A stretch of 64,000 bases of DNA. It comes from Candidatus Gaiellasilicea maunaloa. Lineage in GTDB: Bacteria; Actinomycetota; Thermoleophilia; Gaiellales; Gaiellaceae. The translations under genes and the position numbers were made by a program. The stretch spans positions 86,643 through 150,642 of the forward strand of contig JANDLU010000001.1 in assembly GCA_024330215.1 (NCBI GenBank), written 5' to 3'. Every line of letters starts with the position of its first letter. Positions within the stretch are counted from its first letter, which is position 1. A model generated the notes under the pieces. It made no database searches. It was not told the DNA's origin and worked only from the letters and a program-made list of their open reading frames with translations. Positions 19,714 to 30,349 of this stretch are shown here, piece by piece.

Positions 19714-19877
19714 GTGGCCCGCCTGGTGACGATGCCGCGCCGATGGGGTTCGCAAAGCGAGCGGCGCTAGGACGCAGGGAGTATCCATACCTGCATGGTA
19801 TGGACACGACTGAGGACGACACGACGTGAAGTCCTTGCGGGCGTCAGCGGCCCGGAGGCCGTTGCCAGGCGGGCCAC
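19714..19877 (-). promoter_or_regulatory. PCVLA-type structured intergenic element, copy 1 (secY/adk)
   Basis: The element fills the gap from the secY stop to the adk start. Outer stem: GUGGCCCGCCUGG pairs perfectly with CCAGGCGGGCCAC (13 bp), ending two bases before the adk GTG. Inner core (19769-19818): hairpin CCAUACC-AUGCA-GGUAUGG flanked by the motifs CGUCCUCAGUCG and CUCCCUGCGUCC. A 26-codon ORF (19708-19788, MDTPCVLAPLAL...) starts in the hairpin and ends as GTGA on the adk start. Compared with the other copies the hairpin has changed CAUGCC/GGCAUG to CAUACC/GGUAUG, a paired change. Confidence 0.65.
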
Positions 19878-21131
19878 CTACTTGAGGAAGCCTTCGTAGG
19901 AGCGCGCCATCATCTGCGACTCCATCTGGCGCATCGTGTCGAGCGCGACGCCGACCGCGATCAGCACCGAGGTGCCGCCGAGCGCCCCGGCGGTCGCCTG
20001 TGAAAAGCCGCCGTAGCGGATGAAGAGCGTCGGCAGCGTCGCCACGAGGGCGAGGTAGATCGCGCCGGGCAGCGTCAGCCGGGTGAGGACGCGGTCGAGG
20101 TACTGAGCCGTCGGCGGGCCGGGACGCAGACCCGGGATGTAGCCCCCGTAGCGGCGCAGGTTGTCGGCCTGGTCGACCGGGTTGAACTGCACTGCCGTGT
20201 AGAAGTAGGTGAAGACGACGATCAGGAAGCCCTGGAGGAGCATGTAGCCGACGTTCGTCGGCAGGAAGTGCTCGTTGACGAAGCCCTGCGTCTGCGGGAA
20301 GTACTGCCCGATCGTCGGCGGAAACGCCATCACCGCAGCGGCGAAGATGACCGGGATCACGCCGGCCATGTTCACCCGCAGCGGCATGTAGGTCGAGCCG
20401 CCCGCGGTCATCCGGCGGCCGACCATCCGCTTCGCGTACTGGATCGGGATCCGACGCTGGCCTTCCTGGATGAAGACGATCGCGGCCACGATCGCAAGCG
20501 CGATCAGCGGGAAGAAGAGCTTCTCCATCGGGCCGCCGTTCCACCAGGCCGCGACGCCGATCGGCGCGCCGGTCAGGATCGAGGCGAAGATCAGGAGCGA
20601 GATCCCGTTGCCGATTCCGCGCTTCGTGATCAGCTCGCCCATCCACATCAGCAGGGTGCAGCCGACGGTGAGCGTGATGATGATCAGCGTCATCCGGCCG
20701 AGGTTCGCGTCGAGCACGCCCTGGCGCCGGAAGAGGAAGGCGTAGCCGGTCGACTGCGCCGCGGCGAGGACGATCGTCAGGTAGCGCGTGTACTGGTTGA
20801 TCTTGGCGTAGCCCGCCTCGCCCTCCTTCTGCAGCTCGGCGAGCCGTGGGATCACGACCGTCATCAGCTGGAGGATGATCGAGGCGGTGACGTACGGCAT
20901 GATCCCGAGCGCAAAGATCGAGAATTGGGAGAGCGCGCCGCCCGAGAAGAGGTTCAGCAGGCCGAGGATCGTGCCGCCGCGACTGTCGAAGTAGCTGTCG
21001 ATCGCGTCCGAGTTGACTCCGGGGGCCGGCATCCAGGAGCCGAGCCGGTAGAGCGCGAGGATCATCGCCGTGAAGAGGACGCGGCGCCGGAGCTCCGGGA
21101 CCCGCCACGCGTTGCCGAGCCACGAGAACAC
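19878..21131 (-). CDS. secY: Protein translocase subunit SecY
   Basis: 417 residues with ten predicted membrane helices, the channel-forming subunit of the Sec translocon. Diagnostic segments: GLLNLFSGGALSQFSIFALGI (plug and helix 2 region), QFNPVDQADNLRRYGGYIPG and GGTSVLIAVGVALDT near the end. GTG start at 21129-21131 with GAAGG upstream. It separates rplO from adk, as in most spc operons. Confidence 0.97.
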   Translation of the reverse strand: MFSWLGNAWRVPELRRRVLFTAMILALYRLGSWMPAPGVNSDAIDSYFDSRGGTILGLLNLFSGGALSQFSIFALGIMPYVTASIILQLMTVVIPRLAELQKEGEAGYAKINQYTRYLTIVLAAAQSTGYAFLFRRQGVLDANLGRMTLIIITLTVGCTLLMWMGELITKRGIGNGISLLIFASILTGAPIGVAAWWNGGPMEKLFFPLIALAIVAAIVFIQEGQRRIPIQYAKRMVGRRMTAGGSTYMPLRVNMAGVIPVIFAAAVMAFPPTIGQYFPQTQGFVNEHFLPTNVGYMLLQGFLIVVFTYFYTAVQFNPVDQADNLRRYGGYIPGLRPGPPTAQYLDRVLTRLTLPGAIYLALVATLPTLFIRYGGFSQATAGALGGTSVLIAVGVALDTMRQMESQMMARSYEGFLK

Positions 21132-21155
21132 GCCTTCTACGCTCCGCTTGGAAGG

Positions 21156-21770
21156 TTAGACATCGGAGTCACCGGCAGTCTCGTCGGTGCCGCCGGAGAC
21201 ATTCGGGGCAGTTGCATCCGCAGCGGTTGCCTTTCTAGCCGTTCGCGCCGTGGCGCGAACGGCAGGCTCGCCGCGGAGCCACATCACCGTTCCCCCGGCC
21301 GACTTGATCTTCTTCTGGGCGCTCCCCGAGAACGAGTGCGCCGAGACCGCGAGCTTCTTCCTCAGCTCGCCGGAGCCGAGGATCTTGACGTCCTTGCGGA
21401 TGGAGCCGATCAGCCCGGCGGCCTTCATCGTCTCCGGGGTCACCTCGGCGCCGGGCTTGAAGGCCCTGTGCAAATCGCGGATGTTCACAGGCTGCGAGTA
21501 CGTGCGGAAGGGGCCGATCGGCATCGCGTCGGCGGACGTGTTGCCGCGCTGCTTCGGCAAGCGCATGTCGAGGGGCGTCTGGCCGCCTTCGAAGCCCGCC
21601 TTCAGCTTGTGCGACCCCGCGCGTGACTTCTGACCCTTGATTCCACGGCCGGAATAGCGGCCCTTGCCCGAGCCCAGGCCACGGCCGACCCGCTTGCGGT
21701 CCGTGCGCGGCTGCGCCGGCCGCAAGGTATGCAGGTTCAGCTCCGTGGTGGGGGGGGCGTCCTGGGCCAT
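21156..21770 (-). CDS. rplO: 50S ribosomal protein uL15 with C-terminal extension
   Basis: 204 residues; the normal protein is ~145-150. Core: LRPAQPRTDRKRVGRGLGSG and KSRAGSHKLKAGFEGGQTPL. The last ~40 residues (Ala/Thr/Asp-rich, no conserved domain) are an extension that starts around a perfect 12-bp palindrome at 21238-21263 (GCCGTTCGCGCC, 2-base loop), translated as AVRATARTA. The ATG 21768-21770 is used; the longer tracked ORF is a frame artefact. Confidence 0.95.
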   Translation of the reverse strand: MAQDAPPTTELNLHTLRPAQPRTDRKRVGRGLGSGKGRYSGRGIKGQKSRAGSHKLKAGFEGGQTPLDMRLPKQRGNTSADAMPIGPFRTYSQPVNIRDLHRAFKPGAEVTPETMKAAGLIGSIRKDVKILGSGELRKKLAVSAHSFSGSAQKKIKSAGGTVMWLRGEPAVRATARTARKATAADATAPNVSGGTDETAGDSDV

Positions 21771-21772
21771 CG

Positions 21773-28902: not shown

Positions 28903-29183
28903 TAGCGCTTCACCTTGGCCTGGCGATCGCCGGCATGGCCGCGAAAGGTCCGCGTCGGAGCGAACTCGCCGAGCTTGTGCCCCACCATCTGCTCGCTGAC
29001 GAAGACCGGCACGTGCTTGCGGCCGTCGTGGACCGCGATCGTGTGCCCGACCATTTCGGGGAAGATCGTGGACGAGCGCGACCAGGTGCGGATCATCCGC
29101 TTCTCGTTCGTGGCGTTCATCGACTCGATCCGGCTCAGCAGCCGTGCCTCGATGAAGGGGCCCTTCTTGGAGCTTCTACTCAT
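28902..29183 (-). CDS. rpsS: 30S ribosomal protein uS19
   Basis: 93 residues starting [19 protein letters not shown]; conserved [10 protein letters not shown]-like block ([20 protein letters not shown]) and [16 protein letters not shown]. It forms a head complex with S13. The ATG 29181-29183 lies at the base of the outer stem of element copy 3, with AGGAGA in the stem's 3' arm. Confidence 0.97.
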
Positions 29184-29345
29184 GGGTCTCCTGGTGACGA
29201 TTTCGCGTCTCTGAGGTGCGAGACGCAAGCAGTGCAAGGACGCAGGGAGCGTTCATGCCTGAAGGCATGGACGCGACTGAGGACGACGCAATGCGCCGCG
29301 GATCGCGCATCAGAGACGCACTAATTGTTGCCAGGGGGCCCATTA
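29182..29345 (-). promoter_or_regulatory. PCVLA-type structured intergenic element, copy 3 (rplB/rpsS)
   Basis: Fills the rplB-rpsS gap. Outer pairing AUGGGCCCCCUGG with CCAGGAGACCCAU (11 standard pairs of 13) spans the rplB stop side and the rpsS AUG and contains its ribosome binding site. Middle stem GCGUCUCUGA/UCAGAGACGC (10 bp, perfect). Core at 29229-29294 with CGUCCUCAGUCG, hairpin CAUGCC-UUCA-GGCAUG and CUCCCUGCGUCC. A 26-codon ORF (29176-29256, [12 protein letters not shown]...) runs over the rpsS start and stops 8 bases inside it. Confidence 0.7.
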
Positions 29346-30185
29346 ACGCTTGTCCTTCCCGCGGCGACGGCCGCGCACGATCAAGTTGTTGGATTCCTTG
29401 TGCTTCGCGCGGGTGCGCTTGCCGAGCGTCGGCACGCCCCACGGGGTGACCGGATGACGGCCGCCCTTCGACTTGCCCTCGCCGCCGCCGTGCGGGTGGT
29501 CGACGGGGTTCATCGCCGAGCCGCGCACGCCCGGCCGCTTGCCGAGCCAGCGGTTCCGGCCGGCCTTGCCGATCGACTGGTTCTCGTGGTCGGCGTTCCC
29601 GACCTGGCCGACGGTGGCGCGACACGCCAGTGGCACGCGGCGCATCTCCCCGGACGGGACGCGCAGCACCGCATAGCCTGCGTCCTTCGCTACGAGCTGG
29701 ACGCTCGAGCCGGCGGAGCGCGCCAGCTTGGCCCCCTGGCCCGGCTTCAGCTCGACGTTGTGCACCATCGTGCCGGTCGGGATGTGCTCGAGCGGCAGCG
29801 CGTTGCCGGGCTTGATGTCGGCCGTCGGGCCGGACTCGACCGTGGCGCCGACCCTGATCCGCGCCGGTGCGATGATGTAGGACTTCGCGCCGTCGGCATA
29901 GTGGAGCAGCGCGATCCGCGCCGACCGATTCGGGTCGTACTCGATCGCGGCGACCTTCGCCGGTACGCCGTCCTTCGTCCGCTTGAAGTCGATCACGCGA
30001 TAGCGGCGCTTATGCCCGCCGCCCTGGTGACGCGTGGTGATGCGGCCGTTCGAGTTCCGTCCGCCCGTCTTCTTCAGCGGCTCCGTCAGGCTCTTCTCCG
30101 GCCGCGACTTCGTGACCTCCTCGAAGCTCGAGACGGACATGAAGCGCCGGCCGGGTGACGTGGGCTTGTACTTCTTCAGGGCCAT
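29343..30185 (-). CDS. rplB: 50S ribosomal protein uL2
   Basis: 280 residues, one of the largest and most conserved 50S proteins, close to the peptidyl-transferase centre. Contains [30 protein letters not shown]-like [17 protein letters not shown] and the [13 protein letters not shown] motif with the critical His. ATG at 30183-30185 lies two bases after element copy 4. Confidence 0.98.
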
Positions 30186-30187
30186 CA

Positions 30188-30349
30188 GTGGGTCTCCCGG
30201 TGACGGTTTCGCGTCTCTGGCGCGCGAGACGCAAGCAGTGCAAGGACGCAGGGAGCGTTCATGCCTGAAGGCATGGATGCGACTGAGGACGCAGCAATGC
30301 GCCGCGGATCGCGCGACAGAGGCGCCCTGACTGTTGCCGGGAGGCCCAC
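30188..30349 (-). promoter_or_regulatory. PCVLA-type structured intergenic element, copy 4 (rplW/rplB)
   Basis: Occupies the whole gap from the rplW stop to two bases before the rplB ATG. Outer stem GUGGGCCUCCCGG/CCGGGAGACCCAC (12 standard pairs of 13); relative to copy 3 the pairs G-C to A-U and C-G to U-A have changed on both sides. Middle stem GCGCCUCUG/CAGAGACGC. Closing stem GCAUUGC/GCACUGC (6 of 7). Core motifs as in the other copies, hairpin CAUGCC-UUCA-GGCAUG. A 25-codon ORF (30185-30262, [12 protein letters not shown]...) ends as TGATG on rplB. The rplB ribosome binding site GGGAGA is in the outer stem. Confidence 0.7.

Follow-up and report, generated by a model that had tools for sequence, protein, structure and literature searches.

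What fills four gaps between genes of the S10 and spc ribosomal protein operons of Candidatus Gaiellasilicea maunaloa, and is it a structured RNA belonging to those operons? The gaps (secY/adk, rpsQ/rplN, rplB/rpsS and rplW/rplB) lie in the 64,000-nucleotide stretch of contig JANDLU010000001.1 analysed here, which we call the window, and the first-pass annotation had interpreted their contents as four copies of a structured RNA element. We confirmed the four copies as an observation; the interpretation is partly supported. The four copies are probably insertions of a single non-autonomous element resembling miniature inverted-repeat transposable elements (MITEs), with a core that has been selected for a strand-specific fold.

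We read the four gaps and aligned them on the transcribed strand, and found the copies where they had been reported, all in one orientation relative to transcription (Table 1). The nearly invariant flanks, CGTCCTCAGTCG and CTCCCTGCGTCC on the minus strand, are identical in all four copies, around a short variable hairpin inside a longer stem. The paired changes that had been quoted as a mark of structure are also present: CATGCC/GGCATG versus CATACC/GGTATG, GTGGG/CCCAC versus ATGGG/CCCAT, and CCCGG/CCGGG versus CCTGG/CCAGG. No known RNA family in Rfam matched at gathering or permissive thresholds, as the annotation had supposed. When folded, the whole element is one long imperfect hairpin; in the rplW/rplB copy, the core on the folded strand consists of GGACGCAGGGAG, the variable hairpin and CGACTGAGGACG. 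This copy begins directly after the rplW TAA and stops 2 nt short of the rplB ATG (TGATG), and the termini of the rplB/rpsS copy share bases with the stop codon of rplB and the start codon of rpsS. In the rpsQ/rplN copy, the first bases of the left arm are GTGATC, native to the stop/start overlap, and the right arm is complementary to them; the secY/adk copy is bounded by the TAG of secY and the GTG of adk. In copies with this operon type of end, the incoming arm comes after the stop codon, and a Shine-Dalgarno sequence lies in the outgoing arm a few bases 5' of the start codon.

The element had been taken for an RNA of the S10 and spc operons, with matches expected only in ribosomal operon gaps; its distribution contradicts this. 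In the 3.85-Mb genome to which the window belongs (here, the own genome), CTCCCTGCGTCC has 23 matches, 10 forward and 13 reverse, well above chance, as the reversed-pattern control has none; every one of the 23 sits within the same core. We searched genomes with R1, a covariance model of the element core, which gave 31 matches in the own genome and at least 150, on both strands, in the complete 4.7-Mb genome of isolate FR_37. Across the class Thermoleophilia, 299 genomes were sampled and 144 had R1 matches; in a phylum-wide sample, the only matches outside the class came from nine genomes of two families, and the pattern matches belonged, by record title, to Thermoleophilia or unplaced Actinomycetota. 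The element is therefore a class-wide dispersed repeat of approximately 160 to 180 bp. The S10 and spc genes (~12.5 kb) hold 4 of the ~28 own-genome copies, against a chance expectation of 0.09. Other operon-type copies in the own genome lie at nuoI/nuoJ, atpF/atpH and carA/carB, as judged from the translated neighbours. Apart from ABC transporters, no recurrent neighbour gene pointed to a dedicated locus or enzyme, and no clear replication-strand bias was found in FR_37 (55 versus 46). No element match was found in the phage and plasmid collections searched. Full-text searches of open-access papers gave no account of this element family, which is weak evidence.

The same junctions are filled in some relatives and empty in others. 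We compared ~72 S10/spc regions of the family, measuring every gap, and found core-bearing copies at ~11 junctions, patchily distributed within genera. The empty rplW/rplB junction of same-family relatives reads GTC-TGATGG (in full, ...GTC-TGATGGCC), with stop and start codons overlapping; the filled copies, present in several genera, differ in their arms. The rpsQ/rplN and secY/adk junctions follow the same pattern. Within genus g6, rplW/rplB is filled in one species only, rpsQ/rplN in two with different arms, rplV/rpsC in two and rplN/rplX in one, the last being TGATGCAAACC when empty and TAA-GTGGCTCC...GGAGCCAC-TGATGCAAACC when filled. A footprint-like remnant, TAA-CCAC-TGATG, occurs in G173 where its congener G184 carries the element. 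At rpsQ/rplN, two independent copies (G002 and G263) open with the native GTGATCC and close with its complement. The FR_37 genome contains copies nested in copies, tandem copies and many copies that are 94 to 100% alike. From these sequence comparisons we infer that the element is mobile. With 28 to 31 copies in the own genome, at least 150 in the complete relative, insertion on both strands, and gain or loss between congeners, it is best regarded as a mobile repeat rather than a regulator of ribosomal operons. Dispersed copies were also what the annotation itself had named as the sign of a mobile repeat.

Two further arrangements were observed among the copies. In FR_37, insertion has occurred repeatedly at one and the same place within another copy, immediately after CTCCCTGCGTCC, a non-YTAR position (L062, L288, L282 and L294), and head-to-tail arrays of the element with a period of 163 to 165 are present at L355 and L277.

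Covariation and dispersal are not mutually exclusive here, because both came out positive. The alignment comprised 74 distinct copies of equal hairpin length, in which we tested 16 pairs; in 13 of these, both partners have changed in some copies, and 92.5% of cells pair. Doubly changed cells numbered 234, compared with 67 +/- 7.6 in shuffles and 22 to 58 with slid partners. The covariation that the annotation had anticipated is thus present. The strand that folds can also be identified, given that it should tolerate G.U and not A.C. We examined 72 disjoint sister-copy pairs with scoring that was neutral between the two wobble classes, counting each change once. Changes leaving G.U on the GGACGCAGGGAG strand (A.C on the CTCCC strand) numbered 254, and the reverse (G.T on the CTCCC strand) 86. 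By lean, 55 sister pairs favoured a fold of the GGACGCAGGGAG strand and 10 the opposite, an excess that none of 100,000 random sign flips attained. The excess lies in the inner arms (60 nt, 252:82) and is absent from the outermost 15 nt (17:21); such a lack of strand preference in the outermost ~15 bp is as expected for double-stranded terminal repeats. Within the core hairpin, the wobble effect is concentrated at pairs three and four from the base. Folding predictions also make the GGACGCAGGGAG strand the more stable of the two in 184 of 197 copies, with means of -101.9 versus -83.6 kcal/mol. We conclude that selection maintains a fold of the inner module of ~90 nt (GGACGCAGGGAG...CGACYGAGGACG) on one particular strand.

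In the folded strand, pairing is possible between the invariant motifs, G-[GA]-C to G-[GA]-C and GG-[GA]-G to C-[GA]-CY, where Y is U or C opposite G (48 G.U and 25 G-C). The invariant "loops" can accordingly be drawn, from the alignment rather than from a computed structure, as two tandem G.A steps. Likeness to hammerhead, k-turn and attC structures was considered and dropped because their defining motifs are lacking. In the window copies, the strand that folds runs antisense to ribosomal mRNA. The claim of a selected structure therefore stands as regards a covarying single-strand fold with constant internal motifs, but the fold belongs to the complementary strand, and because of this the sequence does not support an mRNA leader-type element.

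The ends of the element point to how it may move. In 151 copies with clear matched ends, terminal inverted repeats lie ~59 and ~57 nt from the core. The inner module of ~90 nt is common to all elements, and the outer ~15 bp are exchangeable terminal inverted repeats: the operon-type end is GTGNCCCTCCCGGCAAC, and other, unrelated types are GGGCCTGTCCRGAAA, GAGCTCGTTTCAGAA, GGAGGGTTTGGCGAAA, CAGGCTGTTGAAGAAC, AGAGCCTCTAACACAATG and AGTGACTATCCGGAAACC. The flanking sequences resemble stop codons (YTAR or TRA). Target-site duplications are short (3 to 4 bp), partly decayed and of an exact length that varies by type; target repeats are clear in some copies (TTAG/TTAG in L009, CTAA/CTAA in L024, TTGA/TTGA in L025). 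Short coreless derivatives that keep GGAGGGTTTGGCG ends (L015:291-377, L018:1569-1612, L071:6613-6680) suggest that the ends alone may suffice for movement, or that the core was lost after insertion. A second element combines operon-type ends and inner arms with a different core, AGTCCACCCTCG...CGGCC (L030:1750, L346:3620, L379:8000, L382:4730); at secY/adk in G015 and G165, it is reversed relative to transcription.

Some of these outer repeats match the ends of resident insertion sequences with DDE transposases, and the elements therefore resemble MITEs whose ends can be exchanged around a common structured core. The own-genome insertion sequence L310 (982 bp, DDE_Tnp_1) begins CTAGATGATTGATGCCACGG, and in relatives element L057 opens with CTAGATGATTGATTCCACGG and element L075 with CTAGATGATCGATTCCACGC; the end CTAG-ATGATTGAT-CCACGG is common to all three. 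In FR_37, many copies of a 1437-bp DDE_Tnp_1 insertion sequence start with CAGGCTGCTGAAAAAG, which is the end of E-type elements, and the CAGGCTGCTGAAAAA terminal repeat is found in both. The element is thus short, non-coding and dispersed in both orientations, with terminal inverted repeats and target duplications or empty sites, as MITEs are; ends shared with a resident transposon were seen for two end types and not for the operon type. The same two end types, with their CTAG/TTAA-type targets, recall IS5-like insertion sequences with YTAR targets, but those lack the core, and the element described here encodes nothing.

Table 1. Positions in the window of the four element copies, their structured cores and the Shine-Dalgarno-like sequences of their outgoing arms.
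Feature	Position	Strand	Details
Element copy, rplW/rplB gap	30188..30349	(-)	162 bp; R1 match 30220-30305, 96.3 bits
Element copy, rplB/rpsS gap	29182..29343	(-)	~162 bp; R1 match 29214-29299, 97.9 bits
Element copy, rpsQ/rplN gap	25591..25771	(-)	181 bp; R1 match 25626-25711, 81.6 bits
Element copy, secY/adk gap	19713..19878	(-)	166 bp; R1 match 19746-19832, 80.7 bits
Structured core, rplW/rplB copy	30220..30305	(+), folded strand	Wobble asymmetry, folding energy, core alignment
Structured core, rplB/rpsS copy	29214..29299	(+), folded strand	Core alignment and R1 match
Structured core, rpsQ/rplN copy	25626..25711	(+), folded strand	R1 match
Structured core, secY/adk copy	19746..19832	(+), folded strand	R1 match
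GGGAG, Shine-Dalgarno-like, outgoing arm	30194..30198	(-)	8 nt before rplB ATG; read from sequence
AGGAG, Shine-Dalgarno-like, outgoing arm before rpsS	29188..29192	(-)	Read from sequence
GGGAGGTGA, near-perfect Shine-Dalgarno, outgoing arm before rplN	25597..25605	(-)	Read from sequence

Further near-perfect palindromes stand at gene ends of the same operons in the window (23446-23467, 23520-23553, 26560-26590 and 28440-28475; for example, TTTCACCCCCTGCGGGGGTGAAA and CCTTTGTTTGGTGAGCTCTGCTCACCAAACAAAGG), and relatives have AAAATGCTGCGCATTTT and GACCCTTCGCTTCGCTCGGGTGA repeats in the rplW/rplB and rplB/rpsS gaps; the extra operon palindromes look like another dispersed hairpin family. Outside the window, a single core copy occurs in an IMG/VR viral contig (L434:602-649). 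One copy of GGGCCTGTCC type in the own genome (L021 on C131, ~2900-3080) lies in frame inside a carB-like coding sequence, adding ~55 residues and leaving the frame free of stops. In this it resembles the Rickettsia palindromic elements, but most copies here are intergenic at stop codons, and the phylum and the sequence are different.

In the mechanism that we favour, DDE transposases of resident insertion sequences would act in trans to cut and join the element ends, and would recognise stop-codon-like YTAR/TRA targets. Owing to target duplication and the Shine-Dalgarno sequence supplied by the arm, insertion at TGATG or GTGA overlaps would spare both the stop codon of the upstream gene and the start codon of the downstream one, so that even ribosomal protein operons would tolerate it. 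The strand-specific inner fold would serve the mobility of the element or its persistence in cis, and the folding molecule could be extruded single-stranded DNA or an RNA read from that strand. Several observations weigh against this explanation. The matching insertion sequences L310 and those of FR_37 do not carry the core, no transposase with operon-type ends (GTGNCCCTCCCGG) was found, and DDE_Tnp_1 was undetected in three copy-rich draft genomes. No autonomous core-carrying element was found either, nor any gene between matching ends in 1.5 Mb of loci; long-range pairs of matched ends are two separate copies. In addition, orientation within operons is strictly one-way, which is unusual for elements with near-symmetric ends. 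Near ribosomal protein genes, one orientation accounts for 54 of 54 matches, with the folded strand antisense to the mRNA. Codirectional gene pairs in general give 46 to 16, with many sites unclassified, and elsewhere copies also occupy convergent or opposite-orientation sites. This orientation may result from directional insertion or from purging of copies that place a strong fold in mRNA; no copies placing the fold in highly expressed mRNA were found, which purging would explain most simply.

A more specialised form of mobile element, adapted to bacterial operons, is also possible, and we put it forward tentatively. Such an element would insert directionally at stop/start overlaps, bring its own Shine-Dalgarno sequence and thereby keep the essential genes on either side translatable, and need its folded RNA or single-stranded DNA strand kept out of mRNA as the template strand, with a core module shared across unrelated transposon ends.

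Could the copies nevertheless regulate the operons from within the mRNA? In that case, the outer stem would sequester the Shine-Dalgarno sequence of the next gene until ribosomes completing the preceding gene opened the stem (translational coupling), and the core would bind a protein or ligand. The stop codon, the anti-Shine-Dalgarno-like left arm and the Shine-Dalgarno right arm are arranged as this requires, and the single orientation near ribosomal protein genes agrees with it. Same-junction copies from two species of one genus (G179 and G285) also have arms that differ by compensatory changes, five of them double compensated pair differences. WC-to-AC versus WC-to-GT changes (WC, Watson-Crick) number 25 versus 12, the only fair counts in this comparison because the starting structure was taken from the folded strand of one copy. 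However, the element is patchy within genera, it stands beside unrelated genes genome-wide and at convergent or opposite-orientation sites, and its selected fold is on the antisense strand. We regard such a regulatory role as unlikely.

A strand-specific fold in which stems vary and flanking motifs stay constant is also what would be expected if a Y1 (RAYT/TnpA-REP) transposase recognised the hairpin of one strand and moved the element as single-stranded DNA. Repetitive extragenic palindromes and bacterial interspersed mosaic elements (REP/BIME), served by RAYT, likewise form hairpins near gene ends with many copies per genome, and the own genome has four Y1_Tnp genes. Unlike REP/BIME, the element is much longer, has several terminal repeat types, and is abundant in FR_37, a complete genome with at least 150 copies and no Y1_Tnp match. 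DDE elements are a better fit to its terminal repeats and target duplications, and mobilisation by a Y1 transposase is quite improbable. More doubtful still is that the paired changes arose as a mutational by-product, with palindrome arms correcting each other and no selection on structure. Long quasi-palindromes are known to be homogenised by template switching, and the sister pairs hold ~95 to 100 double changes, but this process cannot produce the 254:86 asymmetry or keep the asymmetric internal motifs of the core unpaired and invariant on the other strand. Finally, a bacterial retroelement, whose folded RNA is copied and inserted by reverse transcriptase, can be set aside almost entirely: the structured, strand-specific core with tandem G.A pairs resembles RNA and FR_37 has 13 reverse transcriptase matches, but PF00078 was undetected in seven of eight copy-rich genomes (the own genome, a 97% complete draft, and six others), and no RNA is known from the folded strand.

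As described in two reviews (PMC2229807, PMC10969869), bacterial MITEs are stem-loop elements of 100 to 200 bp moved in trans by insertion sequences; NEMIS transcripts are processed by RNase III, and ERIC effects depend on orientation. Like NEMIS/Correia, ERIC and RUP, the element described here is small, non-autonomous and intergenic, a long stem-loop with terminal inverted repeats and TA-containing target repeats that is presumably mobilised in trans by insertion sequences (PMC2229807, PMC10969869). As far as those families are covered there, it differs from them in being GC-rich, in having one structured core under at least seven unrelated terminal repeats, in its strong strand-specific covariation, and in repeated one-way insertion at overlapping stop/start codons in ribosomal operons. 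Searches of PMC2229807 and PMC10969869 gave no description of core sharing, strand-specific covariation or operon-junction insertion.

Overall, the element is real, class-wide, mobile and strand-specifically folded. It shows a mobile element settling repeatedly in the most conserved bacterial operons, at single-nucleotide gene junctions, and leaving them unbroken. Wobble asymmetry between sister copies provides a clean sequence test for the functional folded strand of a repeat, which here is the one opposite the mRNA. One structured core under several unrelated transposon ends is unusual, and offers a testable case for structure serving mobility itself.

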